NCBI GenBank assembly: GCA_009773415.1
Contig: WSNO01000013.1
Coordinates: 1 to 64,000, forward strand
From: Nitrospirota bacterium
GTDB taxonomy: Bacteria > Nitrospirota > Thermodesulfovibrionia > Thermodesulfovibrionales > Dissulfurispiraceae
DNA: 64,000 bases
Direction: 5' to 3'
Shown here: in pieces, positions 5,561 through 34,108 of the stretch
Layout: each line of letters begins with the position of its first letter
Numbering within the stretch: the first letter of the stretch is position 1
The notes under the pieces: model-generated
The model's database searches: none
The model's input: only the letters and a program-made list of their open reading frames with translations
What the model was told of the DNA's origin: nothing
Made by a program: the position numbers and the translations under genes

Positions 5561-5795
5561 CGTTCTCTGATTTTCAACACCTTTTTTTACTGCTCCGCCC
5601 TCTCAGTCACAAAAAGAGACCGGGAAGGATCACTATCAGAAACTCTACGCGTCACATGCTCGGCGGTTCGGGAGATGCCGGACTCACTGCACAGAGAATT
5701 CCAAGGTTCGGGATCCTCTCGTTTCTGTGCTCCGGGGTCGTCGGTCAGATCATTCTGCAAGCCCTTTGCCCTTGAATCCCCGGATTATGTTTCCT

Positions 5796-6995: not shown

Positions 6996-6997
6996 GC

Positions 6998-7828: not shown

Positions 7829-7849
7829 GTTTTGTTGTTCCGAACCTTT

Positions 7850-9244: not shown

Positions 9245-9256
9245 GCCACGATCCCC

Positions 9257-10063: not shown

Positions 10064-10123
10064 GCGTCTCCTCCTTTGTATAGAACCATTGTAGAGAACC
10101 GGAATTCAGAACTCTTTCTCTAT

Positions 10124-11494
10124 CTACCTGCTTCCCCGACCAAATAATACCACCCGAATCGTCTCAAGCACAATCATCATGTCGAACACTACGCTGATAT
10201 GCTTTATGTAGTAAAGATCATAACTCAGCTTTTCATACGTGTCTTCGATCGACGCGCCGTAGGCATAGGAGACCTGCGCCCAACCCGTAATCCCCGGCTT
10301 GATGGAGTGGCGCTTGGCATAATACGGAATCTCATCTGCAAGCTCCTTGACAAACTCGGGACGCTCAGGCCGCGGCCCCACAAAACTCATCTCCCCGCGC
10401 AGCACGTTCCAGAGCTGGGGAAGTTCATCCAGTCTGGATTTCCTGAGGAATCGGCCGACTCTGGTGCACCTCGGATCGTCTTTCTTGGCCCAGACCGCAC
10501 CCGAGAGCTTCTCGGCATCCGTGCGCATCGTGCGGAATTTCAGCACGGTAAACTGTCGCCCACCCTCGCCTACACGGCTCTGCCGGAACAGCACCGGGCC
10601 GGCGGAATCCAGCTTCACGAGAAGGGCAATAAGCGGAAGCAACGGCAGAACAACCATAAACAGACCAAGCGCGCAGCATACATCGACAATGCGCTTGAAA
10701 AACTTTCTCGTCTGGTTCACACGAAACCCGTCGGAATAGATAAGGGCGCTCGGTACGAGGTGATCTATCATCAGTTTGCCGTTCATCACCTCGAAAAACG
10801 CGGCGGCATCCATGACATCGATGCCGCTCAGCTTGCACTCCAGCAGCTCTTTCACCGGAATCTTGCCCCGGCGGTCGCTCACCGCAACGACGATTTTGTT
10901 GGCATTCTTTTGCTCCGCGATGCCGCAGATCATAGCGCTGCTGCCGACAATCTCCTCGTCGGAAATAACCCGCCCTTCTGAGCCGCACTCCACAAAGCCG
11001 ACAAGATGGTACTTGTGATTGCGGCTGATGATGAGATTCCCGATTTTCCGCGCCAGGCGGCCGGTTCCGACCACAAGAATTCTCTGGGAAAACTCCGGCG
11101 CATACGTGAAGCGGGAAACCAGAATATGCCAGCCAAACTGACACACGCCAAAAAACAACAGCGCGCTGAAAAGAGTCGTCCGTCCGAAAATGAAGTCCGG
11201 CACAAGAAAGCTAATCGTCGCAAATACCACAAAGGAAACAGACAGGGCCTTTACGACACGCCGGAAGATATGCTTTGCCTGATAGTTCACCTCCGGCACA
11301 TACAGCTCAAACAAATACGCATTGAACGCAAGAATGACCAGCCAGAGAGAGATCGACAAGCCGTCCCAGACGTCAAACGAATTAAGAAAGTCGCTTTCAG
11401 CTGAAGTGACCGCATAGAGGGCAATAGCCGCAAGAAGAATGTCTCCGGCAAGGAGAACCATGGACGCTCGCGGTATCACTCTTCGAAATGGCAC
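10124..11494 (-). CDS. Exopolysaccharide polyprenyl glycosylphosphotransferase (initiating enzyme)
   Basis: A 456-residue WbaP/EpsB-type enzyme. It has about five N-terminal membrane helices, a Rossmann-like CoA-binding middle (RILVVGTGRLARKIGNL near 140) and the C-terminal bacterial sugar transferase domain with FKRIVDVCCALGLFM, VLKFRTMRTDAEK, RKSRLDELPQLWNVLRG, MSFVGPRPERPEF and KPGITGWAQVS. It transfers the first sugar-1-phosphate to undecaprenyl phosphate at the inner membrane. It starts four bases after the prsT stop. The sugar is not predictable. Confidence in the family is high (TIGR03013/03025-like). Confidence 0.94.
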   Translation of the reverse strand: MPFRRVIPRASMVLLAGDILLAAIALYAVTSAESDFLNSFDVWDGLSISLWLVILAFNAYLFELYVPEVNYQAKHIFRRVVKALSVSFVVFATISFLVPDFIFGRTTLFSALLFFGVCQFGWHILVSRFTYAPEFSQRILVVGTGRLARKIGNLIISRNHKYHLVGFVECGSEGRVISDEEIVGSSAMICGIAEQKNANKIVVAVSDRRGKIPVKELLECKLSGIDVMDAAAFFEVMNGKLMIDHLVPSALIYSDGFRVNQTRKFFKRIVDVCCALGLFMVVLPLLPLIALLVKLDSAGPVLFRQSRVGEGGRQFTVLKFRTMRTDAEKLSGAVWAKKDDPRCTRVGRFLRKSRLDELPQLWNVLRGEMSFVGPRPERPEFVKELADEIPYYAKRHSIKPGITGWAQVSYAYGASIEDTYEKLSYDLYYIKHISVVFDMMIVLETIRVVLFGRGSR

Positions 11495-11498
11495 AGGC

Positions 11499-15042: not shown

Positions 15043-16485
15043 TTAGGAATTGAGTCCGCACCGCAAGGGGTCACTAACGCCAGCACCTTGCAACTGAACC
15101 TCCTGCCCGCCTGCTGCCCCAGCATCGACCGCCTTGATAGAATAGCCCTCGATTTTTTTGTAGAGGGCCTTGCGTGATATGCCGAGCAGGCGGGCAGCCT
15201 CCGACTTGTTTCCTTCGGAACGCTCCAAGGCTTCAATGATTGCCTCTCTTTCAAGGTCACGAAGGCGCAGAGTTCTCCGCTGGGCAGGCTCTAGTTGCAA
15301 TACTCCTGCAGCCACTTCATCAGGCAAATCGCTGAGTTCGATCTGGCTGCCCCGCGCGATGATGACTGCCCTCTCCACGGCATTCTTCAACTGACGCACG
15401 TTGCCGGGCCACAAACAGATCCGGAACAGGTCAAGCACCTCACGGGAAAAAGTAAGAACGCGGTTCTCTCGGGCACACATCTCGCGCAAAAAATGCGATG
15501 CGAGCAGCGGAATATCATGCTTCCGCACCCGCAAAGGCGGAACGTCTATATTGATGACATTGATGCGGTAATAGATATCTTCGCGGAAAGTGCCTTTTGC
15601 AACAGCCATCGCAAGGTCGCGGTTGGATGCGCAGACAAGGCGAAAATCCACCTGAACGTCCCGATTGCTGCCGAGCGGCTGGACGACACGATCCTGCAGC
15701 ACTCTCAGGAGTTTTGCCTGCACATCAATGCCCAGTTCGCCCACCTCGTCAAGAAAAAGTGTGCCGCCCGACGCCTCGACGAATTTGCCGATACGCTTGC
15801 TCATCGCACCCGTAAAAGCACCCTTCTCATGCCCGAACAGCTCGGCCTCCATGAGGCTGTACGGAATCGCCGCGCAGTTCACCGCGACAAAAGGCTCATC
15901 AGCGCGGGTGCTCGAATAATGCAGGGCTTGGGCGATCATATCCTTGCCGCTTCCCGTTTCGCCCGATATGAGAACACTGCCCTGCGAGTTCCTGACCGCA
16001 TCGATGATGTCTCGCACCTTTTTCATTACAGGGCCTTCCCAAATCATCTGGACTCCGGGTCCGGCGGACATTTTCTCCCGCTGGAGCCGCGAAATCTCGC
16101 GTTTCAGTCGACGTCGCTCGACCGCAAGCGCAAGGATGTTTCTAAGCTGCACATAGTCCGGCGGTTTTACGAAATAATAGAACGCCCCCTGCGAGATAGC
16201 ATCCATCGCTGACTGGACCGACCCGTACGCGGTCAGCAGAATGACCGGAATGTCGGGATGATGCCTTCGGCAATAATCCAGAAGGGAAAGCCCGTCGCGC
16301 CCCGGCAATTTAATGTCTGAAATGATCGCGTCAGGTTCGGCATGCTGAAGGAGGCGTATCGCTTGGTCGCCGTCTTCGGCGCATGAGATCCCATAGCCGA
16401 CTTCGCCCAGCAGCGCCGCGAGCACTTTGAGCGATGATGCATCGTCCTCTACCAGCAGTACTGTACCGAGACTGTCGGAAGTCAT
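15043..16485 (-). CDS. prsR: Sigma-54-dependent response regulator PrsR (PEP-CTERM-box regulator)
   Basis: A 480-residue NtrC-family activator. The receiver domain has acidic pair Glu13-Asp14 and phospho-acceptor Asp57 (ISDIKLPGRDG). The AAA+ domain has Walker A GETGSGKDM near 173 and the sigma-54 contact loop GAFTGA near 225. The C-terminal Fis-type HTH is EGNKSEAARLLGISRKALYK, with a 27-residue tail. Its place beside prsT in an exosortase locus matches PrsR (TIGR02915). It very likely drives the sigma-54 promoters found at both PEP-CTERM genes here (18473 and 29048). The start overlaps the kinase gene stop by four bases (ATGA). Confidence 0.92.
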   Translation of the reverse strand: MTSDSLGTVLLVEDDASSLKVLAALLGEVGYGISCAEDGDQAIRLLQHAEPDAIISDIKLPGRDGLSLLDYCRRHHPDIPVILLTAYGSVQSAMDAISQGAFYYFVKPPDYVQLRNILALAVERRRLKREISRLQREKMSAGPGVQMIWEGPVMKKVRDIIDAVRNSQGSVLISGETGSGKDMIAQALHYSSTRADEPFVAVNCAAIPYSLMEAELFGHEKGAFTGAMSKRIGKFVEASGGTLFLDEVGELGIDVQAKLLRVLQDRVVQPLGSNRDVQVDFRLVCASNRDLAMAVAKGTFREDIYYRINVINIDVPPLRVRKHDIPLLASHFLREMCARENRVLTFSREVLDLFRICLWPGNVRQLKNAVERAVIIARGSQIELSDLPDEVAAGVLQLEPAQRRTLRLRDLEREAIIEALERSEGNKSEAARLLGISRKALYKKIEGYSIKAVDAGAAGGQEVQLQGAGVSDPLRCGLNS

Positions 16486-17483
16486 GAGCAGAAAATTCCT
16501 TCCGGTGCGGCAGCGGGAAGCAACAGGCGCACCACCGTGCCTACTCCCCCGGCACTCTGAATCTGGACCTTCCCGCCGAACGAACGCACCACTTCATGCG
16601 TTATGAAAAGTCCGTACCCCCGCCCTTTTGAACGGCGCGTGCCGTCGCTTTCATCAGCGCTCCATGCAGCCACCCTGCCGGAGTCGGCAATCGCTATGAC
16701 GACATAGACCTGGCCGTCGATTGTTTCGCTCAGGCTGCTGACAGATAGCACATCGCCCGGACTGCTCGCCTCGATCGCATTATTCACAATATTGAGGATT
16801 GCCTGCTGCAGATGAAACGGATCAACCGTAATGGGCGGGACCGTTGCGGTGTCGAGAACTATGCTCATGTGCCGCGAACGCACCTGCAGACCCGTCATGC
16901 CAACCACCTTCTGAAGCAATTCATTCACATCCGTCAGCTGACAATCGGACTCCTCATACGCCTGCCCGAGAAAGCCCGATATGAACTGGTTGAGACGATC
17001 AATCTCGCTGTCCATGATCTGAGCAAATTCGACGAGCCTGTCCTCGCCGGCATATTTTTGCTGAATATATGCGAGCGCGCCTTTTATGGCATTCAGAGGA
17101 TTGCGCGTTCCGTGCGCAAGAGTCGATGCGAGTTTTCGTATATCGACAAGCTTCTGCATGTGCCTGTTGCCAATAGAATCGGGACAGACAGAAACCTGCG
17201 CTCCCGACACGACGCCTGTTTCGTCGAAGATCGGCGCAATAGAGATATCGAGCGAGTAAACTCCGCAGAACGACCGAACAAGATAGCTATTCAGAATGAT
17301 CGGCCCGCCGCTCTGCATGGCATTCAGAACCAGATCTTTTCCCTTGTCAGCAAGCGCTGTGACGAAGTCCGCATAATGCGCACCGACGGCCAGCTCTTGA
17401 GAAGTCATGAACGCCTGTTCAAAAGCGCGGTCGCAGCCGGTAATGCGAAGCTGTGCGTCAACAGTGAAGCTATAGCGAACCAT
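16482..17483 (-). CDS. Soluble PAS-type sensor histidine kinase, presumed PrsR partner
   Basis: A 333-residue kinase without membrane segments. It has a PAS-like domain at 1-100, a HisKA H-box STLAHGTRNPLNAIKG at 120-135 (His124) and a HATPase domain with N-box NIVNNAIEAS near 207-216 and G2 box GRGYGLFITHEV near 288. The residue after the phospho-acceptor His is Gly where Glu/Asp is usual, and the G1 box reads IADSGRVAAW instead of D-x-G-x-G, so activity may be altered. It is shorter than the typical membrane PrsK. It heads the operon with prsR; a sigma-70 promoter is visible at 17606-17634. Confidence 0.85.
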   Translation of the reverse strand: MVRYSFTVDAQLRITGCDRAFEQAFMTSQELAVGAHYADFVTALADKGKDLVLNAMQSGGPIILNSYLVRSFCGVYSLDISIAPIFDETGVVSGAQVSVCPDSIGNRHMQKLVDIRKLASTLAHGTRNPLNAIKGALAYIQQKYAGEDRLVEFAQIMDSEIDRLNQFISGFLGQAYEESDCQLTDVNELLQKVVGMTGLQVRSRHMSIVLDTATVPPITVDPFHLQQAILNIVNNAIEASSPGDVLSVSSLSETIDGQVYVVIAIADSGRVAAWSADESDGTRRSKGRGYGLFITHEVVRSFGGKVQIQSAGGVGTVVRLLLPAAAPEGIFCS

Positions 17484-18472: not shown

Positions 18473-18488
18473 TGGCACGCCAATTGCA
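18473..18488 (+). promoter_or_regulatory. Sigma-54 (-24/-12) promoter of PEP-CTERM gene 1
   Basis: TGGCACGCCAATTGCA matches the TGGCACG-N4-TTGCW consensus at every defined position, with GG (18474-18475) and GC (18486-18487) at the required spacing. Expected transcription start is near 18499, 29 bases before the ATG at 18528. PrsR encoded nearby is the obvious activator. Confidence 0.9.
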
Positions 18489-18527: not shown

Positions 18528-19337
18528 ATGATAAAGATGACAACAAACAAAGTACAAAATGGAAAGGTGGTGAAAAGAATGAAAAGAATGGTAGCTGTTT
18601 TTGTAGTGATGATGATGCTGGCAATCGGCAGTCAGGCGCAGGCGTATACAATCCTTGACAACTGGTCGATGAATCTGAGCACGATCAAACCTGCTTATAG
18701 TAACGCAACCAACATCGACAGGCTGATTGTGCAGGGCACGGCAACTTTGCAGCTGTCCGGAGCGCCTGCCGCAGGCGTAACATTTACTGAAGACGCACGG
18801 CTGCAAATCGCCGCGTACGTCAAGGAAGGCGAGGGTTTCGCAACTCCGTTTTCCATTGGCCCCAACTTTCTGTACATTGAGGCCCTTGGGTTGGCAGGCG
18901 AAATTACAAACTACGGCGCAACATCGTATCAGTATATGTTTTATCCCGGCGTTGGAACCATTAATGTTTACCTCGGAACCGGAGCTCCTGCTACTGACAC
19001 GATTCTCGCCAGCCTGTCGGTAATCCCGGGTTCAGGCGGACAGGGAGCCGTTATGGACGGCGGCGTGGGTCCGTCAGGCACCACCGGCCTCGATGCACTC
19101 TTTCTTAGCGGGTTGCCCGGTCTCTGGACCACGGGAAGCGGTTTTGACTTCGGCACTTACGGAATTGCCCTGCTTGATTCGATCAATACTGTCAAAGCAT
19201 TAGGGCAGAATCAGCTTCAGTTCACCATATCAAGCCAAGGTGAGGTGAACACCGTTGTTCCTGAACCGTCAACCTTCGTGCTTATCGGCGCCGGACTCGT
19301 AGGTTTGGGTCTTGCAGCCAGAAGAAGGATGAAGTAA
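18528..19337 (+). CDS. PEP-CTERM sorting-domain secreted protein 1
   Basis: A 269-residue exported protein. The signal peptide has a long basic n-region, hydrophobic core MVAVFVVMMMLAIGS and cleavage near SQAQA-YT. The mature part is low in charge and rich in Gly/Ala/Thr/Ser. The C-terminus has VPEPSTFVLIGAGLVGLGL followed by an ARRRMK tail, the tripartite sorting signal recognised by exosortase. GGAGG lies 6 bases before ATG 18528, which supports this start, although ATG 18579 also follows a GGTGG. It is controlled by the sigma-54 promoter at 18473 and ended by the terminator at 19355. The biological role of the mature domain is unknown. Confidence 0.93.
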   Translation: MIKMTTNKVQNGKVVKRMKRMVAVFVVMMMLAIGSQAQAYTILDNWSMNLSTIKPAYSNATNIDRLIVQGTATLQLSGAPAAGVTFTEDARLQIAAYVKEGEGFATPFSIGPNFLYIEALGLAGEITNYGATSYQYMFYPGVGTINVYLGTGAPATDTILASLSVIPGSGGQGAVMDGGVGPSGTTGLDALFLSGLPGLWTTGSGFDFGTYGIALLDSINTVKALGQNQLQFTISSQGEVNTVVPEPSTFVLIGAGLVGLGLAARRRMK

Positions 19338-19354: not shown

Positions 19355-19392
19355 CAAAAAAGGCCAGGATTGGCGTCCTGGTCTTTTTTTTT
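19355..19392 (+). terminator. Rho-independent terminator after PEP-CTERM gene 1
   Basis: Stem CCAGGA (19364-19369) / TCCTGG (19376-19381), extended by AGG/TCT, has a 6-base loop and is followed by a run of nine T. An A-run precedes the stem, so it could act on both strands. Confidence 0.85.
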
Positions 19393-19418: not shown

Positions 19419-20162
19419 ATGAGAATTCTCGAACCTGAAGTGATGATGTCGGAGGAGGAAATCCTCGCCTATGACAAGCTGGTTCTCAAGTATCTCGGTA
19501 TTTTACATGCCGGGGCGGTAGAAACAATTCTCAACATGAGCCCCCGCGAAGGGAGGTTTCTTGACGTGGGAACCGGAACCGGCTGGATATCCATCGGCGT
19601 CGCTGAGAACTGTCCCGGGGCTGAGGTCATCGGCATAGATCTGTCGCCTGCCATGCTGAGCGTTGCCGCAGGCAATGCCCGGCAGCAGGGAGTAAGTGAC
19701 CGGGTTTCTTTTGTTTTAGGAGACGCAAAGAAGATTCACTATGAGGACAATTCATTCGATGCGGTTTTTTGCCACAACATGCTTCACCATATACCGCATC
19801 CCTTGCCAATGGTCAAAGAGATGATACGGGTTTTAAAAAAAGACGGCGCTCTGCTCATCAGGGATCTCAAGCGCATTGCCCACCCCTGGATTGAGTTTCA
19901 TGTAAATGTACTCGGACTGACCTATACGAAGCTGATGAAGAAAGAATACCGCGATTCTATTCAAGCAGCCCTCTCTGAAGAGGAGTGGAAGCAGCTCATT
20001 GATCAGATACAGGTTCCCGGAGCAAAGCTGACGAGGCAGTTTATCACCCATATGAGCATTGAACGACCGTCACTCAGACGCAGGGCTGAGCAGATTCAGG
20101 TGCCGACGCCGCTCCACATGCGGCTGGCGAAGAAAATGTATGTCTCAGGCGGAGGCGCGTAA
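19419..20162 (+). CDS. Class I SAM-dependent methyltransferase
   Basis: A 247-residue Methyltransf_11-type enzyme. Motif I is LDVGTGTGWISIGVAE near 47-62, acidic motif VIGIDLSPAML near 70-80, and motif II/III FDAVFCHNMLHHIPHP near 112-127. The C-terminal 100 residues are basic and probably bind substrate. It is first in a string with the acyltransferase (40 bases downstream), so it may modify the same small molecule. A TATATT box at 19395 and a GAGAG near the ATG suggest a very short leader. The acceptor is unknown. Confidence 0.85.
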   Translation: MRILEPEVMMSEEEILAYDKLVLKYLGILHAGAVETILNMSPREGRFLDVGTGTGWISIGVAENCPGAEVIGIDLSPAMLSVAAGNARQQGVSDRVSFVLGDAKKIHYEDNSFDAVFCHNMLHHIPHPLPMVKEMIRVLKKDGALLIRDLKRIAHPWIEFHVNVLGLTYTKLMKKEYRDSIQAALSEEEWKQLIDQIQVPGAKLTRQFITHMSIERPSLRRRAEQIQVPTPLHMRLAKKMYVSGGGA

Positions 20163-20165
20163 CCG

Positions 20166-20210
20166 ATGGAGCAATTCTTCAGCAGCTTGATGGTCCGGCT
20201 TTATGATTGA
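20166..20210 (+). CDS. Possible 14-residue ORF overlapping the acyltransferase start
   Basis: ATG at 20166 encodes MEQFFSSLMVRLYD and stops 8 bases inside the acyltransferase gene. GGAGG lies 10 bases upstream (20151-20155), within the end of the methyltransferase gene. It may merely couple translation to the next gene, which has no good Shine-Dalgarno of its own. A peptide substrate for the neighbouring ThiF-like enzyme is a remote alternative. Very uncertain. Confidence 0.2.
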   Translation: MEQFFSSLMVRLYD

Positions 20211-20940
20211 AACAGAGTACGGCAGCCATAGATTCTGCTACCGGCCTGCGCTTACTCCTGTGGATCTCCATAGGATATATGAGCTGCGGTATCAGGTGTA
20301 TGTGAATGAATGGCACTACGAACGCAGTGCTGACCACCCCGGCGGTATCGAAAAGGATGTCTATGATCAGCACTCGCTGCACTTTATGGCGTTTTCAGAC
20401 AACGTGCTTATCGGCACGGTTCGCATTATTAAAAATTCGCAGATCGGGTTTCCGCACGAGCGCCACTGCGTAATAACTTCCGACCTGTCAGGGGTTGACC
20501 GTGACAAGATGGGGGAGATTTCGCGGCTTGCAGTCTCAAAAGATTTCCGGCGGCGGTCCTATGACAAAGATCTCTTTGAGGGAGGAAATCCGCCGGAAGA
20601 TATGTTTCTCTCCGACAATGATGTGCGGCGCAAGCGCCACGAAATCATCATCGGCCTTTTCAAGGCCATGTACCGGGAAAGCAAGGCTATCGGGCTGACC
20701 CACTGGATTGTCGTCACTGCCCGGGCGCTGCAGATTCTGCTCAGGCGACTGGGCATTCATTTTGAACAGATTGGTCCCGATGTAGACTACCACGGCACCC
20801 GGACGCCCTATCTTATCTGCATTGCCAACGTTGAGAGACATCTTGCCGAAACAAACTGCGAACTGCTCCAGGAGTTCATCGAAGGACTGCCGGACTCGCT
20901 GAAACCGCATTGCCTTCCATCAAGCAAGAAAATTCTTTAG
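20203..20940 (+). CDS. PEP-CTERM/exosortase-associated acyltransferase (N-acyl amino acid synthase-like)
   Basis: A 245-residue GNAT/LuxI-fold protein with RIYELRYQVYVNEWHYE at about 25-41, the position where LuxI/FeeM-type synthases carry the conserved RYxVY(V) segment. Further matches are LHFMAFSDNVLIGTVRII near 60-77 and GEISRLAVSKDFRRRS near 105-120, the strand that binds the acyl-carrier pantetheine arm. It matches the exosortase-associated acyltransferase family (TIGR03694-like). Members of this group are known as long-chain N-acyl amino acid synthases linked to PEP-CTERM systems. It would transfer a fatty acyl group from ACP to an amino acid or related amine. Product unknown here. Confidence 0.82.
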   Translation: MIETEYGSHRFCYRPALTPVDLHRIYELRYQVYVNEWHYERSADHPGGIEKDVYDQHSLHFMAFSDNVLIGTVRIIKNSQIGFPHERHCVITSDLSGVDRDKMGEISRLAVSKDFRRRSYDKDLFEGGNPPEDMFLSDNDVRRKRHEIIIGLFKAMYRESKAIGLTHWIVVTARALQILLRRLGIHFEQIGPDVDYHGTRTPYLICIANVERHLAETNCELLQEFIEGLPDSLKPHCLPSSKKIL

Positions 20941-20946
20941 CCCGGA

Positions 20947-21831
20947 TTATTCCTTTGCCTGTTTCTCCGCTGCAAGCGCTTTTCTGAGCACTATCAATTT
21001 TTTCAGACGCTGCAGGGGATTTTTCCCGCCCATGAACACGTATCCGCTTTTGAACTTCTTTCGCAGAAGATCGATCTGGGTATAATGAGGCACTGCCAAA
21101 ACCTGCCCTTTGCCGGTTCCGAGCTTGATGACCTCTGTTGCAACGAGCGACGCCGCAAGCGTGCATGCCAGGGCAAGCGCAGGCCCGGTTTTGCGGGTAA
21201 GGCTCACCCTGCTGAGATCCATATAGTTAATATGGTAAGGGTTCGGAGCGAGCCCTACGGCAAAAGCGGCCAGCTTGTCCAGGTGAGGCATGGTGTCGTG
21301 AATGCCGAAATAGTCGTCAAAGGTCATGCCCCGGGGAGAAAAGACCTGAAGCGTTGCGCCGAACCCCAGTGGCGCTGAGGTGATGGCGTAGACGCCTTTT
21401 TCATAGCACCTGCGAAAAATCAGCCGCCGGAAATCGATCTCGAAGAAGTCGACTCCGTCGACAAAAACATCCGCTCCCTCCAGAAACTCGTCGACATTCG
21501 CGCCGGTAATTGCGGATGGCATTGACCGCACCGCCGCTTCCGGGTTGATGTCCTGAAGCATTCCGGCCAGCACCTCAGCCTTGTTTTTGCCGAAGGTGCT
21601 CCTGAAGCATGCATATTGGCGGTTTATATTCGGCGCTTCAAACGTGTCCGGGTCCGCCACGGTAAACCCGCCGATTCCGATGCGCGCAAGTGTCAGGGCA
21701 TGGATGCCTCCAACGCCGCCGGCCCCCGCTATCGCAACTCTCATATTGAGAAGCTTTCGCTGCTGCTCCGCCGTCAGCAGTCCGAGATTTCTATTAAACT
21801 CTTCTTCAATTAATTTATCTGCCCGCATGCG
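20947..21831 (-). CDS. ThiF/MoeB/E1-like adenylyltransferase
   Basis: The best start is ATG 21831 (MRADKLIEEEF), giving 294 residues; the open frame runs back to 21864 but would overlap the upstream gene by 50 bases. Rossmann motif VAIAGAGGVGGIHAL is near residues 28-42, then ADPDTFEAPNINRQYA with the conserved Asp, Asn-x-x-Arg and Gln of E1 enzymes, and TFGKNKAEVL with the catalytic Lys. The paired Cys-x-x-Cys zinc motifs of MoeB/ThiF are absent. It adenylates a carboxylate, typically the C-terminus of a protein or peptide. It is the last gene of the exporter operon and converges with the acyltransferase with only six bases between stops. Confidence 0.82.
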   Translation of the reverse strand, partial: RMRADKLIEEEFNRNLGLLTAEQQRKLLNMRVAIAGAGGVGGIHALTLARIGIGGFTVADPDTFEAPNINRQYACFRSTFGKNKAEVLAGMLQDINPEAAVRSMPSAITGANVDEFLEGADVFVDGVDFFEIDFRRLIFRRCYEKGVYAITSAPLGFGATLQVFSPRGMTFDDYFGIHDTMPHLDKLAAFAVGLAPNPYHINYMDLSRVSLTRKTGPALALACTLAASLVATEVIKLGTGKGQVLAVPHYTQIDLLRKKFKSGYVFMGGKNPLQRLKKLIVLRKALAAEKQAKE

Positions 21832-23764
21832 AAACCCGCACGACCATCGCCTTGCGAATGCCAATCTTGTCAGCCGTCAGTTTCGCTGCTTCAGCGGTGC
21901 TGAACCCGGCAACCCTCACCTTGAACCAGCCATCATGTTCACAAATCGAAACCGGTCGTTTGTCCGACAGTTTTTTGCGGACGGTTGAGGCAACCTTTTC
22001 TGAATTCGACCGCTCCCGGAATGAGACGATCTGCAGATAATATGCTGTTCCCCGCGGAAGCTCGCAGGCTTTCGGTTCGGTTTTGCCCTCTGCATTTGCT
22101 GCAACAGCCGGCGACTGCTCCGCCGCCGCGCCACGCTTTGCGGCGAAATGAGCATCAGCCGCGGCAGAAGATAGAACTGCATCAGGAACATCCTGCTGTC
22201 TGACCGGATCGGCTTTCGGGGGAGGGTTTCCCATTTTCTTCTGACCGGACTGTCGTGCCTCAGCCGCAACAAGCGCATCTGTTGTCAACGCAGTTTCTGC
22301 CGCATTCCGGCCCGGTTCCGTCCGTACGGCCCGAGGCTCGCTTGCCCCCGGGGAGGGCGGCGTCTTCGGGCGCGGCGAGTGCTTCGCCCCGTCAAGAAAC
22401 CCATAGTCGACCGCGCGGACAGGACGCGGCTCAAACCACGCGTCGCGAAGCGATGTAACCGAGACTTCAAGGGCTGCAATGCTGACATTGAGCGCATGCA
22501 GCGCGGCGATATAGTCGTGATGGGCGTTAACAAACTCGCTTTCGGCATGGAGAAGCTCAGAAAGTTTCACAGAGCGTTCACGGTATTTCTGAGCATTCTT
22601 GTGTGCAAAGTATTCCGCTGCCAGCAACCGTTTTTCGAAGAAGCCAATCTCCTGCTCCCTGTCTTTCACGTGGCGCCACGTCCGCTCCACCTCAAGCGAG
22701 ACGCGTTTCAGCAGTTCGCTGTGCTCATGACGAGCTCGTTCTGCGGCAAGCGACGCCTTGCGCACCTGAGCCCCCGTGCGGCCCCATTCAAAAATCGGCC
22801 AGTCAAGCCTGAGCATGAGCGCCCAGACGGTCGGCCTGTCAATATTGGTTTCGCGCTGCGCCGTGTAACTCCCCTGTGCGGTAACTTTCGGTGAGTACTC
22901 GCCTCGCGCAATCGCAATCTCCTGCTCCATGCGCTCCACCTTCTTCAGTGACGTCCTTACATCGTCACGAAGCGAAAAAGCGGCTTCACGCACCACGCGC
23001 AACGACGCGCCGAGTTCGGCATTGCGCTGCTCGCCGCGCACATGAAGAGGATCTGTGCCGTCATGCTCAATGAGATTGGCGAGATGCGTCCGTGCAACCG
23101 CAACCCGGTTTTTGCTCCGGTAGGCCGCGAGGTTGGCTCCTGCTGCATCGGTATCGGTCAGCAGCAGGTCCTCCTTGTCCGCAATCCCCTCTTTGTGCCG
23201 TTCTGCTGTCGCCCGGAGCCTCTCCTGTTTTGCAGCCGCAGCTCGCACGAGCGCGTCATGGTGAATCTGCTCGCGCAGCAGTTCGTAGAATGCCTGCTTC
23301 ACCTCAAAGACCAGCACTGCTTTCTGCCGCGCCAGCATAAATCCCGACTCTTCCTCAAAAAGCCTGGAACGGAGATAGTTACCGTACAGGGAACCGCCTG
23401 CAAAGATCGTCTGCTCAACGATTCCGCTCAGTCCGTACATGCTCCGATTATCGAGCGACGATTCGACAACGGACGGCGGCAGTCCTGGGCCGTACGCATT
23501 CGCAGGGGTGACTATTCGTCCGGGGCGGTCCTGAAAGTTAGCAAATCCACCGAGTTTCAGCCGGGGAAGCAGCCCTGACCGCGCGATGGTCACATCTTCG
23601 CCCGCACCGGCGACTTCAGTCTGGATTGCCAGATACCCCGCGTTTCTCTGTACCGCTCTCTCCACACACTGCTCCAGCGTGAGTTCGGCAGCATGCGCGG
23701 CACCGCAGAAAAACGACGCCGCGCCGCCGAGGAGCACGAGAACGGGAATGAGCAAGCGGTTCAT
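21815..23764 (-). CDS. TolC-family outer-membrane factor with C-terminal SPOR domain
   Basis: A 649-residue protein. Signal peptide LIPVLVLLGGAASFFCGAAHA is followed by an OEP/TolC domain at about 25-440, with long helices and repeats (LTLEQCVERAVQRNAGYLAI at the start). Then comes a disordered Pro/Ala/Lys-rich linker at about 445-560 and a SPOR domain (AYYLQIVSFRERSNSEKVAS to the end, about 565-645). The first domain forms the outer-membrane exit duct of the exporter; SPOR domains bind denuded peptidoglycan. It overlaps the HlyD gene by four bases and the ThiF gene by 17. The TolC-SPOR combination is unusual. Confidence 0.88.
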   Translation of the reverse strand: MNRLLIPVLVLLGGAASFFCGAAHAAELTLEQCVERAVQRNAGYLAIQTEVAGAGEDVTIARSGLLPRLKLGGFANFQDRPGRIVTPANAYGPGLPPSVVESSLDNRSMYGLSGIVEQTIFAGGSLYGNYLRSRLFEEESGFMLARQKAVLVFEVKQAFYELLREQIHHDALVRAAAAKQERLRATAERHKEGIADKEDLLLTDTDAAGANLAAYRSKNRVAVARTHLANLIEHDGTDPLHVRGEQRNAELGASLRVVREAAFSLRDDVRTSLKKVERMEQEIAIARGEYSPKVTAQGSYTAQRETNIDRPTVWALMLRLDWPIFEWGRTGAQVRKASLAAERARHEHSELLKRVSLEVERTWRHVKDREQEIGFFEKRLLAAEYFAHKNAQKYRERSVKLSELLHAESEFVNAHHDYIAALHALNVSIAALEVSVTSLRDAWFEPRPVRAVDYGFLDGAKHSPRPKTPPSPGASEPRAVRTEPGRNAAETALTTDALVAAEARQSGQKKMGNPPPKADPVRQQDVPDAVLSSAAADAHFAAKRGAAAEQSPAVAANAEGKTEPKACELPRGTAYYLQIVSFRERSNSEKVASTVRKKLSDKRPVSICEHDGWFKVRVAGFSTAEAAKLTADKIGIRKAMVVRVSHAGR

Positions 23765-24744
23765 GGTTTCTGCTGCGCCGCATCCGGGCGCGCCCCGAAT
23801 TTCATTGTTACGCTCATGCCGTTCTGCAGGCCGGAATAATCGGTGAGACGAACCTGCACCTCCTGTGTGTTGATATCAAATGACGAGGCCGGGTCAAAGG
23901 TCCGCTGCTGTTTGCGCTTTACTGCGGGAAGCACCCTGACAACCTGACCATTATACTTCCTGTCCGGATACGCATCGGTCCAGACTTCGGCATGTTGCCC
24001 CACGATGACCTTTCCCACATCTGTTTCTTCTATCTCGGCACGCACGCGGAGTTGTTTCGGGTCAAGAACGGTCAGAACAGGGGTTCCGGCATCAACCGAT
24101 TCGCGGCGGTCTTTCAAGCGCTCAATCACCACACCGTCAACCGGCGATGTTATGACATAATCTTTCAGCAGTGCCTGGTAGTAGGCGACTTCTGCGGCAT
24201 GTCGCTCAATCGTTGCTGTCCGGGGAAGCGACTTTTCATGCCCTTCTGCCGGACGGGACCGCATATCCCAAACATCGCCTTCTGCCGCCCGGAACCGCTC
24301 CTCAGCGCGCTCAAGCTCTCCGAGCGTCGTGGCCTCGCGGTCGTACAGGCGCTTCTGCCGTTCATACTCAAGTTTGGCCTGCTCGCGGGCAGCTTCAGAG
24401 CGGTAGCTTTTCCCTTCGGATTCTCGAAGCATCGCCTCGGCCATGCGAAGCTTTGCGCGAGCCTTGCCGCTGTCAAAAACCACCAGTTCCTGCCCAGCCC
24501 TGACCTCATCGCCCTTCTTCACTTTTATATCCTGAATGACGCCCGAGACCTGACTGGAGAGTTCATACTCCCCTTCGCTCTCGACAATCCCCTTGGAGGT
24601 CACGCCTTTTGCAGACAGCTTGCCGCCCTCGGACGGAACCGTATTATTTTTAACCAGCACGGGACCGACGACGGCAAGCAGCAGCGCTATCATGATCAAC
24701 CCGCCCACAATTGCAATCGAAGAGTATTTCTTTCGGAGCTTCAT
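23761..24744 (-). CDS. HlyD-type periplasmic adaptor of the exporter
   Basis: A 327-residue membrane fusion protein. One N-terminal helix (IAIVGGLIMIALLLAVVGPVL, 12-32) is followed by a biotinyl-lipoyl half-domain (VSGVIQDIKVKKGDEVRAGQ near 67-86), a helical hairpin coiled coil at 95-185, the second lipoyl half (ITSPVDGVVIERL near 199) and a beta-barrel. It bridges the ABC permease to the TolC-like protein. Four-base overlaps with both neighbours show strict co-translation. Confidence 0.92.
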   Translation of the reverse strand: MKLRKKYSSIAIVGGLIMIALLLAVVGPVLVKNNTVPSEGGKLSAKGVTSKGIVESEGEYELSSQVSGVIQDIKVKKGDEVRAGQELVVFDSGKARAKLRMAEAMLRESEGKSYRSEAAREQAKLEYERQKRLYDREATTLGELERAEERFRAAEGDVWDMRSRPAEGHEKSLPRTATIERHAAEVAYYQALLKDYVITSPVDGVVIERLKDRRESVDAGTPVLTVLDPKQLRVRAEIEETDVGKVIVGQHAEVWTDAYPDRKYNGQVVRVLPAVKRKQQRTFDPASSFDINTQEVQVRLTDYSGLQNGMSVTMKFGARPDAAQQKP

Positions 24745-25442
24745 TTCACCATCTCCTTCTGACCGAAAATCTCACCGTCTTCCATAAAGAGGATGCGGTC
24801 GAACATGCCCTGCGTCCTGCTGTCATGCGTCGCAACAATAACGGACTTTCTGCGATCCGAAGCGAGCGCCCGCAAAAGCCGCATAATATGCACGCCATTG
24901 CTGTGATCAAGGTTTCCGGTCGGCTCGTCCGCGATAATGATCGGGGAGTCTGCAGCGAGCGCCCGCGCAATGGCCACGCGCTGTTTCTGCCCCCCGCTCA
25001 GGTCGCGCGGCAGAAATGAGCTGCGCTCGGCAAGACCGACTTCTGCGATAAGCTGTTCCGCGCGCCGGGCAGCGTCATCCGGGGGGACCTTCCTGAGTTC
25101 GAGAACAAGCATGACGTTCTCAAATGCGGTCAATGCCGGAAAAAGGTTGAACCCCTGAAAAATAAACGAAATATAGCGTTTCCGGATCCAGGGCATTTCA
25201 TCTTCCGGTATGGCGATCACGTCGTTGCCGAATACTTCCAGCGACCCGCCCGTTGGTCTGAGAATGCACCCGAGCATCGACAGCAGTGTTGTTTTGCCGC
25301 TTCCCGAAGGGCCAAAGAGGCCAATGAGTTCTCCTTCGTTCACCGTAATGTCGACACCTCCGACCGCATGCACCTCAACAGGTCCAACAGGTCCTTCCTT
25401 ATATACCTTTGTCAGTCCGCACGCCACAATAGCCGGCTCCAT
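24741..25442 (-). CDS. ABC transporter ATP-binding protein (LolD/MacB/DevA type)
   Basis: A 233-residue ATPase. Walker A is GLFGPSGSGKTTLL near 36-49, the Q-loop IFQGFNLFP, signature LSGGQKQRVAIARALA near 143-158, Walker B IIIADEPTGNLD near 163-174 and H-loop VIVATHDSR. This subfamily powers FtsX-type permeases that export lipids, peptides or glycolipids instead of importing. It partners with the permease gene three bases upstream. Confidence 0.94.
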   Translation of the reverse strand: MEPAIVACGLTKVYKEGPVGPVEVHAVGGVDITVNEGELIGLFGPSGSGKTTLLSMLGCILRPTGGSLEVFGNDVIAIPEDEMPWIRKRYISFIFQGFNLFPALTAFENVMLVLELRKVPPDDAARRAEQLIAEVGLAERSSFLPRDLSGGQKQRVAIARALAADSPIIIADEPTGNLDHSNGVHIMRLLRALASDRRKSVIVATHDSRTQGMFDRILFMEDGEIFGQKEMVK

Positions 25443-25445
25443 CCG

Positions 25446-26573
25446 CTATCCCCGGAAAAGAATCGCCGGGTCGATTCTTCTGATCTTTCTGATCGAAATC
25501 ACCGCAGCCAGCAGGCACATTACCATGGTCAATACAAGCGTCATCAGGTTCACCTGCCAGCTGACGACCATCGTCATACCGGTCATGTCATACAGCTTGA
25601 CAGAAACAAGGGTGATGACGAGACTTGCCACATAACCGATCAGGGCGTTGAGTATCGCCTGCGCAAAGATGATCTGGTAAATGTCGCGGTTTTCGGCGCC
25701 GAGCGCCTTCATGGTGCCGAACTCTTTGAGATGCTCTACGGTGGAGTTATAAATTGTCTGGCCGACTATCAGCATGCCGACCAGAAAGCTGATGATGATG
25801 GTCAGAAGGAACGAGAAGCCGACCCCCGTCTCAATGGTCCAGTACATGCGCGTCCTGAAGCTGAAGTCCTCCTTCGTGAACACATCAACACCGGAGAGAC
25901 GTTGCTGCAGCGACGCAACAACCTCCCGGACAGAGTAGCCAGGCAATTTTTTTACGATGATAAACACGGTCGAATCAGGACTTATATAGCCTCCAAGCCG
26001 CTGAGCAAGGTTATAGCTGGTGAACACCAGGGGTGCTGTTGTAAAAGATCGCACCCCCTCTGATATGCCGACGATTTGTATGCGTTTGCGGTTGACGTCT
26101 TTGTAGTCGCCGATACCAATTTTGCCCAACCGCCTGGTCGCAGATTCGTCCACGATCGCAAAATTCCCGTTCTTCACCGCGCCGGGTTCTCCGGCCTTCA
26201 TCCGCCACGGTCCTCCAATGCCGGTGTCAGGATTAAAGCCGATCACCTCAATTTGCTCGGTGCTTCCGTCCTTCTGCTGGATAACGTTCCAGGCGACTAT
26301 CAGCTTCTCCGCCCACTCAACGCCTGGAGTACCCAGTGCATGATAATACATGTATTCCGGTATCGGATGGGCGAAGTCGAAATTCCGGCTGTTCTTGGAC
26401 GTCACCCAGATGTCGCCCGGCGTGTTGTCGATCAGGACAGAGGACGCCTGCATCAGCCCGAGATAAATACCAATCTGCGAAAAGATGAGCGTGACCGCAA
26501 AAACGACGCCGAGCAGCGTGATCAGAGATCTCACCTTGTCGTACGTCAGAATGCGCAGTGCTATATGAAACAT
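25446..26573 (-). CDS. ABC transporter permease, FtsX/MacB/DevC type
   Basis: The ATG at 26573 (MFHIALRILTYDKVR) has AAGGAAC 5 bases upstream and is the best start, giving 375 residues; the longer frame to 26687 starts in non-coding-like sequence. Topology is one N-terminal helix (SLITLLGVVFAVTLIFSQIGI), a large periplasmic MacB_PCD domain of about 220 residues and three C-terminal helices (FSFLLTIIISFLVGMLIVG; NALIGYVASLVITLVSV; LMTLVLTMVMCLLAAVISI). It resembles DevC, which exports glycolipid. It heads the exporter operon permease-ATPase-HlyD-TolC-ThiF. Confidence 0.9.
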   Translation of the reverse strand: MFHIALRILTYDKVRSLITLLGVVFAVTLIFSQIGIYLGLMQASSVLIDNTPGDIWVTSKNSRNFDFAHPIPEYMYYHALGTPGVEWAEKLIVAWNVIQQKDGSTEQIEVIGFNPDTGIGGPWRMKAGEPGAVKNGNFAIVDESATRRLGKIGIGDYKDVNRKRIQIVGISEGVRSFTTAPLVFTSYNLAQRLGGYISPDSTVFIIVKKLPGYSVREVVASLQQRLSGVDVFTKEDFSFRTRMYWTIETGVGFSFLLTIIISFLVGMLIVGQTIYNSTVEHLKEFGTMKALGAENRDIYQIIFAQAILNALIGYVASLVITLVSVKLYDMTGMTMVVSWQVNLMTLVLTMVMCLLAAVISIRKIRRIDPAILFRG

Positions 26574-26893
26574 AGCAAGTTCCTTGCACAAAATGTACCA
26601 TTTTTTTGATTCTAACAAGTTATTCGCCATGAACAGGTGAGCCTGTGCATGAGAAAAAGCGCCGGACCGGCGCAACCCTTCGCCCACATTACGTTTGCAG
26701 TGATGCGCCCCTTTTCAGACAGCCCGGTCAGTGCGGGACGGCCGGAACGCTGGTTCTCAGGAAACAGTCTTCTTAAAGATTCTGAAGCGTCAGGGCGCAG
26801 TCAATAGTTCAAAAAAATGACGCGCCGCCTTATGGCGCCTGATTCATATTCAAGGGCAGCTCATGTTTTCATATTCTGCGCGCGGCCCCCTGA
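26574..26893. other. Intergenic region between exporter operon and nitroreductase gene
   Basis: It contains the Shine-Dalgarno of the permease, GC-rich short inverted motifs around 26650-26760 without clear meaning, and a weak terminator at 26811-26840. No gene is supported. Confidence 0.4.
26811..26840 (-). terminator. Weak rho-independent terminator after the nitroreductase gene
   Basis: On the minus strand a short stem CGCC-ATAA-GGCG (26826-26837) is followed after a few bases by seven T. The stem is short and the T-run is offset by eight bases, so strength is doubtful. Confidence 0.4.
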
Positions 26894-27940
26894 CTACTGA
26901 ATCAGGACGTCGTTTACGGGCAGCCGCACAGACCGGGCTGACGGCGGGGGAGCAAAACCGACCCGAAACGTCGTTACCATTGCCTCATCCTTCAGTCCGA
27001 AGGCTTTCCGCATGCCTTCTTCGGCTTTCCGCAGTTGCATGCAGTGGCGCTCGGACAGTCTATCGGTGATGCCGGCGCGAGCGCGCTGAATCAGGCACGC
27101 GATGCCAGCCATTGGATGAAACGCCAGCCCAAGGCGCGTCGCCTCCAGCCAGACCCGCTGAAACAGCCTGCCGGCGGCAAAATAGCTCTCAAGGGAGTCG
27201 TCCGGCATGGCGACGATGCCGATAGCCGAAGACGACATGCCGAGCTTCACCGCGTTCTGCGCGATAATCTTCGGCACCCCGAAGGTGCCGAGAAAGCTGG
27301 CGATCCCCCAGTTCTTCAGAAGCCGGAACCCGATTTTGTCGGGCGCCTTCAGCTCAAGCGTCCCGACAAAAAGGCCGTCACGGGTCCGCTCGGCCTCCTC
27401 GTCGCTCCATCGGATGTGGTCGAACAGAAACTTGTGGATATGTTCATTTTCAAAAGCGATGGCGTCGTTGAGTGCGACAGCGCGGGCAAGCGCCGCGCGC
27501 TCGGTCGGATTCACCACCAGGCGAACGAACCCGCCGCCCTCCGAATGCTTCGAGAGCGAGGATGCCTGCTCATCAGACAGAGGTCTTCTTTCGTACAACC
27601 TGCGGTTCGTCGTCCGCTCCGGAATAGCGGAAAAAAGCAGCTCTGTCTGCGGCTCCGCGGCTGCAAAAGAGACAGAGGCGACATGATTTTCCTTCTGCCG
27701 GTCGGGGAAAACAGAAACCTCGGGACGCAAACCCTGCTTTCGCGCGGCGATGCAGATGTTCTCAATGGCTGCGCCGTGAGCCACGATGGAGGCACGCTGC
27801 CCGAAGTTGAACAGAGATGTGTCGGCATCAGGAACGTTATACAGCTCAATCGAAGATTCGGCGACCCGAAACCGCCATGGCTGGCAGTTGTCGCCGGAAG
27901 GCGCAAGAACAGCATAGTCAAGGAGTGAGCGGATATTCAT
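26894..27940 (-). CDS. Nitroreductase-family (Acg-like) FMN oxidoreductase
   Basis: A 348-residue protein opening RSLLDYAVLAPSGDNCQPWRF, the FMN-phosphate-binding start of nitroreductases (APSxxNxQPW). Later it has GMSSSAIGIVAMPDDSLESYFAAGR and FQRVWLEATRLGLAFHPM, corresponding to the end of the fold. It is longer than classic nitroreductases (about 200 residues) and resembles duplicated or extended Acg-type members. It has its own promoter (TATAAT at 27956-27961) and GGGGG Shine-Dalgarno. Nitroreductase-like, ThiF-like and acyltransferase genes side by side suggest a shared biosynthetic pathway; the substrate is unknown. Confidence 0.8.
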   Translation of the reverse strand: MNIRSLLDYAVLAPSGDNCQPWRFRVAESSIELYNVPDADTSLFNFGQRASIVAHGAAIENICIAARKQGLRPEVSVFPDRQKENHVASVSFAAAEPQTELLFSAIPERTTNRRLYERRPLSDEQASSLSKHSEGGGFVRLVVNPTERAALARAVALNDAIAFENEHIHKFLFDHIRWSDEEAERTRDGLFVGTLELKAPDKIGFRLLKNWGIASFLGTFGVPKIIAQNAVKLGMSSSAIGIVAMPDDSLESYFAAGRLFQRVWLEATRLGLAFHPMAGIACLIQRARAGITDRLSERHCMQLRKAEEGMRKAFGLKDEAMVTTFRVGFAPPPSARSVRLPVNDVLIQ

Positions 27941-28040: not shown

Positions 28041-28078
28041 AAAAAAAGAGAGGGGGGCGGCAGATGCCGCCCCCCTCT
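28041..28078 (-). terminator. Strong rho-independent terminator after PEP-CTERM gene 2
   Basis: A GC-rich stem of about 12 bp (GAGGGGGGCGGC / GCCGCCCCCCTC, 28050-28077) is followed on the minus strand by CTCT and seven T. It ends the PEP-CTERM 2 transcript and separates it from the nitroreductase promoter. Confidence 0.9.
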
Positions 28079-28102: not shown

Positions 28103-28981
28103 TTATTTCATGCGCCTTCTTGCCGCGAGGCCAAGGCCGACCAGGCCCGCGCCGATAAGGACAAACGTTGACGGCTCAGGAACGATGTTGATGGGTTCGC
28201 TCGTGATAAGAAAGCCGAAGCGAATAGAGGTATTCTGTCCTTCCACCGTGGTGAAGCCTACACATCCTGCACCCGCACCGGCTACAGTGCAGACGTTCGG
28301 CGGAAGCAGCGGCAAGGTGCCGGCAACAATCCCAGGCCCATCTGTCGGGAAGATGTTAATGTAATACTTAAAGTCGTCAATGACTATCATCTGGTTGAAG
28401 TTGTCGGCTGCCATAGCGAAAATGTCGTTGCACGGATTCCTTAGCGGACTTGCAGCGGAGCACGGGAGTGAATTCGGGGTTTCTGCAAACCGAACCGTAA
28501 AGTAAATGGCCTGGTCCAACCACGGCGACCCAGGAAAACCAGCTGGCTTGAGCGTCAGTGTAGAGGAAATCTTGCTCGACGTCAGGGTTGCATAACTCGC
28601 GCTGATCGGCTTGTTGTGATGAGTAATCCAGTGCCCCTGACCGATGCCGGCAGCGGAGGAGTCATCAGTGTTTACCACGCCAGCTACAGGCACAACTATT
28701 TGATTTGCCGCTGCGGTCTGCGCAATGGTGATGCCGCTTCGGTTAACGGTTCCGTTCACATTTGGCTGGAAAACAGTGTTCGATCCGCCCCATGAAACCT
28801 GGTTGAGCTGTTGAATTTTAGTGCCGCTGCCGCTGGTAAACGTATTGGTTCCCTCAAATACAGTATACAATGTATAATCCCATTGGCTGATATATGCTGC
28901 ATCAACTGGTGCTCCAGCCCCGAACAAAAGCAGACTGATGGTTACAAGGGTTGCCAGTTTTTTCTTCATTCCTATTCTCAT
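28103..28981 (-). CDS. PEP-CTERM sorting-domain secreted protein 2
   Basis: A 292-residue exported protein. Signal peptide KKKLATLVTISLLLFGAGAP has cleavage near VDA-AY. The mature part is Thr/Ser/Asn/Gly-rich with few charges and two spaced cysteine pairs (CSAASPLRNPC near 180-190; CTVAGAGAGC near 235-245). The sorting signal VPEPSTFVLIGAGLVGLGL plus ARRRMK tail is identical over 26 residues to that of the protein at 18528. GGAGG seven bases upstream supports the start at 28981. A sigma-54 promoter lies at 29034-29048. Mature function unknown. Confidence 0.93.
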   Translation of the reverse strand: MRIGMKKKLATLVTISLLLFGAGAPVDAAYISQWDYTLYTVFEGTNTFTSGSGTKIQQLNQVSWGGSNTVFQPNVNGTVNRSGITIAQTAAANQIVVPVAGVVNTDDSSAAGIGQGHWITHHNKPISASYATLTSSKISSTLTLKPAGFPGSPWLDQAIYFTVRFAETPNSLPCSAASPLRNPCNDIFAMAADNFNQMIVIDDFKYYINIFPTDGPGIVAGTLPLLPPNVCTVAGAGAGCVGFTTVEGQNTSIRFGFLITSEPINIVPEPSTFVLIGAGLVGLGLAARRRMK

Positions 28982-29033: not shown

Positions 29034-29048
29034 GCATAAAACGTGCCA
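29034..29048 (-). promoter_or_regulatory. Sigma-54 (-24/-12) promoter of PEP-CTERM gene 2
   Basis: The minus strand reads TGGCACGTTTTATGC: consensus TGGCACG-N4-TTGC with one mismatch (A for the first T of the -12 box) and exact GG/GC spacing. The -12 GC (29034-29035) lies 53 bases before the ATG at 28981, so the leader is about 40 bases. Confidence 0.85.
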
Positions 29049-33055: not shown

Positions 33056-34108
33056 ATGACCGCTCATGTCCGCAAGCGTGCGTTCGGGGAACGCATTCGG
33101 GCCGGGATTGCGGCGTTCCGCCATCCGGTGCTCGACTGGCTCCAGATAGAGGTGACGTCCCGATGCAACGCCGCATGCAGGTATTGTCCGCGCACGGCCT
33201 ACCGGAATGAGTGGGTCAATGCGGATATGCCGCTTGAGCTCTTCACCACGCTCGCACCGGCACTGGAGAAAGCAAAGCTGGTCCACTTGCAGGGATGGGG
33301 AGAACCGTTTCTCCATCCCGGCTTTCTGGACATGGTGCGCTTTGCAAAAGAGCGCGGATGCAGTGTCAGCACGACAACCAACGGCGTCTGCATGGACGAG
33401 CCGCTGCTTGACGGCGTCATGGCGTCCGGCCTCGACATGATTGCTTTTTCACTGGCAGGCTTCGGCGAAACCAACGCCGCGCTCCGCGCCGGAACAGACA
33501 GCGGGCATATCACCTCGCTCATCAGAAAGCTCCACCTGAAGAAACTTGCCCTCGGCCGGACCACGCCGAAGATTCATGTTGCGTTTATGCTTTTTTCCTC
33601 AACGCTGCGGGAGGTCGAACAGATTCCGTACAAACTGGCCGGCATCGGGGTCGATCAGGTTGTCATCAGCACTCTCGATTTCGTGGCTCAGTCGGAGCTT
33701 GATGCCGAAGCATTGCGTCCGGTTTCGGCTGAAGATCATGCTGACCTGAGCAGGCAAATCGGGCAGACCGTCGAGACCTGCCGCCACGCAGGACTGCCGG
33801 TGCACTTCCGCCTGCCGTCGCCGGTGGGGTACAATCAGTTTTGCACTGAAAACGTTCTTTCTTCGGCAGTAGTTAGAGCAGACGGTTCGGTATCTCCCTG
33901 CGTGTTTTCCGCGCTTCCTGTCGGCGATGTGTCGTACTGCGAAGAGCATTCGGAGAAACGGTATGAACACATTACTTTCGACTCAATCGAGGATATCACC
34001 TTTCCCGAAATATGGGCGGGTTCCGCCGCCAGAGCGTTCAGGGCTTCTTTTGCTGCCGGGCAATACGCTCCGCTCTGCCGCGCATGCCCGAAGCGGAGCG
34101 AACAGTAG
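33056..34108 (+). CDS. Radical SAM protein with C-terminal SPASM-like cysteines
   Basis: A 350-residue protein. The 4Fe-4S motif is CNAACRYC (Cys37, Cys41, Cys44), followed by the TIM-barrel marker [13 protein letters not shown] near 80. The C-terminus has [20 protein letters not shown] and LCRACP, consistent with an auxiliary cluster domain. Such proteins modify peptides, tRNA or small molecules; the substrate is not evident. It is third in an arsC / ProC-like / radical SAM string, which is an uncommon grouping. Confidence 0.85.

Follow-up and report, generated by a model that had tools for sequence, protein, structure and literature searches.

A tripartite exporter conserved beside a predicted acyl-oxazolone/N-acyl dehydro-amino acid pathway in Nitrospirota

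Acyl-oxazolones have only recently been reported as bacterial natural products, and their fate and role are called unresolved in that literature. Where such lipids go is the question raised by a gene cluster at positions 19419 to 27940 of a 64,000-nucleotide stretch of DNA, hereafter the window, from a Nitrospirota bacterium of the family Dissulfurispiraceae (assembly GCA_009773415.1, contig WSNO01000013.1, positions 1 to 64,000; genome of 2.46 Mb). The biosynthetic core of this cluster is already-known chemistry; what is new is its linkage with an exporter. We consider it probable that these genes direct both the synthesis and the secretion of a lipid, an N-acyl amino acid of the acyl-oxazolone or N-acyl dehydro-amino acid type, beside an exosortase/exopolysaccharide (EPS) system. 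If true, secretion would settle the destination of these recently discovered lipids, and the exporter linkage gives a direct genetic test of the product's fate. The genes of the cluster are as follows.

19419-20162, plus strand: class I S-adenosylmethionine methyltransferase (MT), UbiE-like (Methyltransf_11/25/31)
20203-20940, plus strand: N-acyl amino acid synthase-like acyltransferase (AT), FeeM/LuxI fold (TIGR03694, 180 bits for a cut-off of 112; FeeM Pfam)
20947-21864, minus strand: ThiF/E1-like adenylating cyclase of the TyzB/OxzB-ThiF type (NF006077/PRK08223, 384 bits for a cut-off of 266)
21815-23764, minus strand: TolC-family outer-membrane channel with a C-terminal SPOR domain (PF02321, PF05036)
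23761-24744, minus strand: HlyD/MacA-like periplasmic adaptor (family matches)
24741-25442, minus strand: ATP-binding cassette (ABC) ATPase, DevA/LolD/MacB-like (family matches)
25446-26687, minus strand: MacB/DevC-type permease, MacB_PCD/FtsX (PF12704, PF02687; relatives at 67-69%; in a clade of its own)
26894-27940, minus strand: Acg-like flavin-dependent oxidase (FDO) of the nitroreductase superfamily, TyzC/TrzS-FDO type (C-terminal match to PRK07877/PRK14851)

All open reading frames (ORFs) of the cluster are intact and lie where an earlier reading made from the DNA letters (the sequence-only reading) had placed them; ORFs and families agree with its inventory of a methyltransferase, an acyltransferase, an E1-like protein, a TolC-adaptor-ATPase-permease exporter and an Acg-like nitroreductase between two PEP-CTERM genes. 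The MT and AT genes converge with the minus-strand genes, and a PEP-CTERM gene stands on either side. Judged from relatives, internal starts are likely for the ThiF-like ORF (Met13, at 21828) and for the permease ORF (at ~26570).

The association of an acyltransferase, a ThiF-like cyclase and an Acg-like flavin oxidase is that of the published OxzAB, TyzACB and TrzAS pathways, in which TyzA/B/C and TrzA/S carry out an N-acylation, a cyclisation that requires ATP (ThiF) and a desaturation that requires O2 (FDO); TyzA/B/C is the separate-gene version and yields C12-tyrazolone (PMC10404671, PMC12856293). The Oxz enzymes of Pseudoalteromonas rubra and the Tyz and Trz enzymes of Mycobacterium tuberculosis and its relatives are encoded by adjacent or fused genes, whereas here three separate genes are interleaved with those of the TolC-adaptor-ABC exporter and the MT, with PEP-CTERM genes flanking them. 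The clusters for stieleriacine, thalassotalic acid and kyonggic acid harbour the same four enzyme classes as the window, namely an N-acyl amino acid synthase (NAS; NasY), a ThiF protein, a nitroreductase and a methyltransferase, which is UbiE-like in Stieleria neptunia (PMC12479983). The stieleriacine-type cluster of Stieleria maiorica also has a PEP-CTERM gene close by, as here (PMC12479983, PMC7293339). In its main text, the comparison of these clusters published in 2025 says nothing of exporter or transporter genes (PMC12479983).

Predicted structures and alignments are in line with these assignments. The AlphaFold model of the AT (pLDDT 86.6) has as its best PDB folds TofI, LasI and FeeM, that is, acyl-homoserine lactone synthases and FeeM, and that of the FDO (pLDDT 94.8) is closest to Acg (2YMV, E 4.5e-16). 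The ThiF-like protein and the FDO match PRK14851 and PRK07877 (Rv1355c), NCBIfam families in which ThiF and nitroreductase form single proteins. Asp139 of the ThiF-like protein aligns with the Asp residue of the E. coli ThiF DCTDN motif (ATP site) and is kept in 96% of 82 sequences. The alignment shows no zinc-binding CxxC pairs in this protein, as the sequence-only reading had noticed, unlike the sulfur-carrier E1 enzymes ThiF and MoeB, which have them. For the ThiF-like protein, a role as E1 in protein conjugation of the ubiquitin/ThiS-like kind or in a sulfur-carrier system is highly improbable: its relatives of solved structure do belong to the E1 superfamily, but it fits best in the PRK08223/14851 group, which is FDO-linked, and we rejected a protein-conjugation function given the missing zinc cysteines and the lack of a ubiquitin-like partner gene among the window's listed ORFs. 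As the core corresponds to the published oxazolone/dehydro-amino acid pathway, the 'carboxyl-activated' product of the sequence-only reading is most likely the outcome of ring closure to an oxazolone. The Acg-like nitroreductase probably acts as a desaturase.

Does the exporter belong to this pathway? A scan with a ThiF alignment placed the nearest relatives of the locus in Nitrospirota metagenome-assembled genomes (MAGs). In two MAGs from another genus of the same family (loci L015 and L016), the order FDO-permease-ATPase-adaptor-TolC-ThiF is the same, convergent with an AT gene located 3' of a PEP-CTERM gene; the MT is absent from these two closest relatives. ThiF orthologues are present in three of 31 genomes of the family, and a close permease (69%) is found in exactly those three, while the acyltransferase is found in those three and one more. 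One genome of the same genus (G182) has no ThiF, close permease or acyltransferase.

Among 396 Nitrospirota genomes, permeases of 67-69% identity occur in five genomes besides that of the window, three of which (G007, G084 and G284) have no ThiF match. We rejected the idea that these three refute the linkage. The contigs of G007 and G084 break off in the exporter or right beside it, and the neighbours on that side are therefore unreadable; in G284 acyltransferases lie beside the exporter. The latter locus (L145) codes for two acyltransferases, a PEP-CTERM protein and an exporter with the same TolC-SPOR fusion, with no ThiF sequence 3' of TolC and no FDO or ThiF found in a genome that is 96% complete. 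Its retention of acyltransferases, exporter and PEP-CTERM gene without ThiF or oxidase suggests that what the exporter carries is the N-acyl amino acid scaffold. Adjoining the two acyltransferases of L145, at 7244-8650, is a gene for a CapK/PaaK-like adenylate-forming protein (weak NCBIfam matches), which may replace the carboxylate activator.

The permease phylogeny tells a similar story. In a tree of 49 permeases, that of the window belongs to an eight-member clade with 100/100 support, and the members with readable flanks are all linked to an acyltransferase or ThiF (6/6); L144 has a PEP-CTERM gene adjoining, and L146 is on a truncated contig. This clade holds every acyltransferase- or ThiF-linked type-A exporter with readable flanks. 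The nearest permeases outside the clade have no acyltransferase or ThiF partners and often adjoin TetR-type regulators. The permease, ATPase, adaptor and channel have domains matching those of the tripartite MacAB-TolC and DevBCA-TolC exporters, but the TolC protein of the window carries a SPOR domain and the permease falls in a clade of its own; the scores of 201 and 160 bits stay below the curated DevA and DevC cut-offs of 296 and 290 bits.

The ThiF scan yielded 80 loci in many phyla, and 81 loci were analysed; the sample was picked by similarity to the ThiF protein of the window and hence is no census. Permease ORFs are concentrated near ThiF: the 708 kb lying up to 5 kb away hold 35 of them, and the 573 kb at 5 to 10 kb hold 3 (one-sided binomial p 8e-7, uncorrected for relatedness). 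The same is true of PEP-CTERM ORFs (59 near ThiF vs 11 further out, p 3e-7). Within 6 kb of ThiF, MacB-type permeases are found in 23 loci and MMPL/RND pumps in 10 strong cases, and the two never co-occur. LolA-like proteins are found in 14 loci and DUF1302 proteins in 12; beyond 6 kb there are no LolA-like proteins or MMPL/RND pumps, and a single DUF1302 protein. A methyltransferase related to the MT is encoded no more than 6 kb from ThiF at 8 of the 81 loci. Four export layouts were distinguished: permease-ATPase-adaptor-TolC; ATPase-permease-LolA-like-AMIN/DUF1302; paired permeases divergent from ThiF-FDO (Rhodocyclales, Nitrosovibrio); and LolA-like-DUF1302-MMPL-ThiF-FDO. LolA-like, DUF1302 and MMPL/RND genes are near or directly before ThiF in L027 (5612-10023) and also in L025, L034, L062, L074 and L092. 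In M. tuberculosis MmpL9 lies near tyz, an analogue of that arrangement, and the literature raises only a possible role for it.

These comparisons indicate that the linkage between the pathway and a dedicated tripartite exporter, with apparent functional replacements in other lineages, is real. The conserved exporter, replaced by an MMPL pump elsewhere, suggests a product destined to leave the inner membrane. The chances seem to us evenly balanced that lipids of the N-acyl amino acid or oxazolone kind are secreted into the outer membrane or the exosortase EPS matrix via dedicated but exchangeable machines, made of a MacB-type ABC transporter with TolC or LolA-like/DUF1302 proteins, or of an MMPL/RND pump with LolA-like/DUF1302 proteins, and that this holds for bacteria of many phyla, probable anaerobes among them. 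That a generic multidrug or lipid exporter happens to lie beside a lipid-modification island is improbable. MacB-type exporters are common, and generic relatives (40-54% identity) are often beside TetR-type regulators, but chance clustering is disfavoured by the order kept in another genus, the co-presence in the family, the supported clade, the enrichment across phyla and the MMPL replacement. Order conservation, co-presence, clade and enrichment also support the proposal of the sequence-only reading that a single pathway yields a product, N-acylated and carboxyl-activated, which has an exporter dedicated to it; a check for independent scatter of these genes, or for an exporter tied to other cargo, did not refute it. 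A role as surface anchor or cue, which that reading also suggested, drew no support from these comparisons.

A possible alternative, which we do not favour, is that the exporter's cargo is a stieleriacine-like N-acyl (dehydro-)amino acid with no build-up of oxazolone, ThiF activation serving desaturation or preceding hydrolysis. The producers of stieleriacine, thalassotalic acid and kyonggic acid have ThiF and nitroreductase, yet no oxazolone was observed (PMC12479983); acyl-Trp intermediates build up in the supernatant and tryptazolones in cells (PMC10404671, PMC12856293); and L145 has kept exporter and acyltransferases without ThiF and FDO. Nevertheless, ThiF is strongly conserved and adjoins the exporter in type-A operons. 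Moreover, oxazolones hydrolyse easily on extraction, and their absence in other producers is therefore perhaps an artefact.

In the pathway that we propose, the TIGR03694-type AT would couple a fatty acyl group, from acyl carrier protein or coenzyme A, to the amino group of a probably aromatic amino acid, as its family and fold suggest. By analogy with TyzB and TrzS, the ThiF-like enzyme would adenylate the free carboxylate with ATP, and the amide oxygen would then close the 5(4H)-oxazolone. Alpha-beta desaturation, in which the FDO would remove two hydrogens, could come either before the ring is closed or afterwards and is the least certain step; the MT might optionally cap the product. The linked TolC(SPOR)-adaptor-ATPase-permease complex would carry the scaffold from the inner membrane through the periplasm and outer membrane. 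Delivery would be to the cell surface or EPS matrix of the neighbouring exosortase system, sigma-54 switching on its PEP-CTERM genes. In 13 of the 81 loci a glycosyltransferase of the GT1/GT28 type is encoded within 6 kb of ThiF-FDO (including L024, L030, L031, L053, L055, L064, L067, L069, L077, L080, L083 and L095), which suggests glycosylated forms of the lipid.

How is the cluster related to the exosortase system? The following features surround it.

4295-14246, minus strand: XrtA/PEP-CTERM exopolysaccharide genes (TIGR03016, TIGR03015, TIGR03018, TIGR03007, TIGR03027, TIGR03013, PrsT TIGR02917)
15043-17483, minus strand: PrsR-like sigma-54 response regulator and histidine kinase (TIGR02915, 382 bits, below the cut-off of 502.6)
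18473-18487, plus strand: sigma-54 (-24/-12) box of PEP1, TGGCACGCCAATTGC, an exact TGGCAC-N5-TTGC match 41 bp 5' of PEP1
18528-19337, plus strand: PEP-CTERM protein 1 (PEP1; PF07589, 28 bits; TIGR02595 above cut-off)
19356-19389, plus strand: terminator-like hairpin, PEP1/MT gap
26659-26673, minus strand: terminator-like hairpin, gap between FDO and the exporter operon
28049-28078, minus strand: strong terminator-like hairpin (13 pairs, 11 GC), PEP2/FDO gap
28103-28981, minus strand: PEP-CTERM protein 2 (PEP2), THxN family (NF038125, 206 bits for a cut-off of 85)
29034-29048, minus strand: sigma-54 box with one mismatch, 5' of PEP2

PrsT scores above its cut-off, and the histidine kinase has no TIGR02916 match. 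A TIGR03008 CAAX-protease relative is encoded left of the cluster with the EPS operon, and the exosortase is on another contig of the genome (TIGR02602, 211 bits). The boxes agree with a sigma-54-type element described for PEP-CTERM genes (PMC1569441) and with the RpoN-dependent promoter reported for pepA (PMC9850573), and bear out the sequence-only reading, which had placed sigma-54 promoters at both PEP-CTERM genes. The window has 3 boxes with at most one mismatch for 5.7 expected, a raw count no higher than chance would give; the case for the boxes is made by their position and conservation alone. Exact boxes occur 86 and 85 bp 5' of the AT-preceding PEP-CTERM gene in L015 and L016, respectively. 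Hairpins with T-tracts follow the AT-preceding PEP-CTERM gene in the window, L015 and L016, so that the enzymes would at most be reached by readthrough. In the PEP-CTERM/AT hairpin, at 11260-11285 of L015 and 9884-9909 of L016, a compensatory stem change separates the two MAGs. A link between NAS genes and PEP-CTERM/exosortase loci was reported by Craig, Cherry and Brady in 2011, as cited in PMC7293339. As that citation has it, the acyltransferase is beside exosortase targets, as here; the exporter linkage and the positions of sigma-54 boxes are our additions to it. The locus offers a chemical partner for this reported, unexplained link.

Several observations weigh against a secreted oxazolone-type lipid that is co-regulated with the exosortase system. 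No export part is seen in 46 of the 81 ThiF loci, several of which are on short contigs, and the acyltransferase is also found without ThiF or exporter (G128). No sigma-54 box with at most one mismatch precedes the MT, the AT, the FDO or the permease/exporter operon, and terminators divide the transcription units; with such hairpins in the PEP1/MT, PEP2/FDO and FDO/permease gaps, the locus is not a single operon. The location 'inside an exosortase regulon' put forward by the sequence-only reading therefore holds for the PEP-CTERM neighbours with their boxes and is conjectural for the pathway operons. The FDO has Ala162 and His275 at columns that match Arg540 and Gln651 of TrzS, a mapping made by PRK07877 profile offset only, and that are mostly Arg and Gln across the family. 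Two FMN-site residues are thus apparently substituted relative to the Oxz, Tyz and Trz enzymes. In TrzS, Arg540Ala causes the loss of most of the flavin mononucleotide (FMN) and impairs desaturation (PMC10404671, PMC12856293). The genome, in another difference from the Oxz, Tyz and Trz hosts, has dsrA (dissimilatory sulfite reductase); it has cydA (cytochrome bd) and no match to a ccoN-type oxidase, a profile in which an O2-dependent oxidase is unexpected.

Together, the substituted columns and this respiratory profile indicate that the desaturation step may be altered here or use another acceptor. More broadly, the flavoenzyme might catalyse a different reaction: it could be a reductase, or else a dehydrogenase that needs no O2 and uses some other acceptor, and its product would then be a saturated oxazolone or a different derivative. 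We regard this as rather unlikely: in addition to the substitutions and the dsrA/ccoN profile, the Arg column is also non-Arg in deltaproteobacterial relatives, but the fold is clearly that of Acg/FDO, the column mapping comes from profile numbering alone, and cytochrome bd makes exposure to O2 plausible. The deltaproteobacterial relatives lacking Arg at the Arg540-equivalent column are themselves from MAGs.

The GC content of the cluster (0.559, vs 0.547 for the window) gives no clear signature of horizontal transfer. An IS256-family transposase is encoded at 43356-44630, ~15 kb right of the cluster. At 33056-34108 lies a gene for a radical SAM/SPASM protein that resembles tungsten-cofactor oxidoreductase maturases, with a score under the family cut-off.

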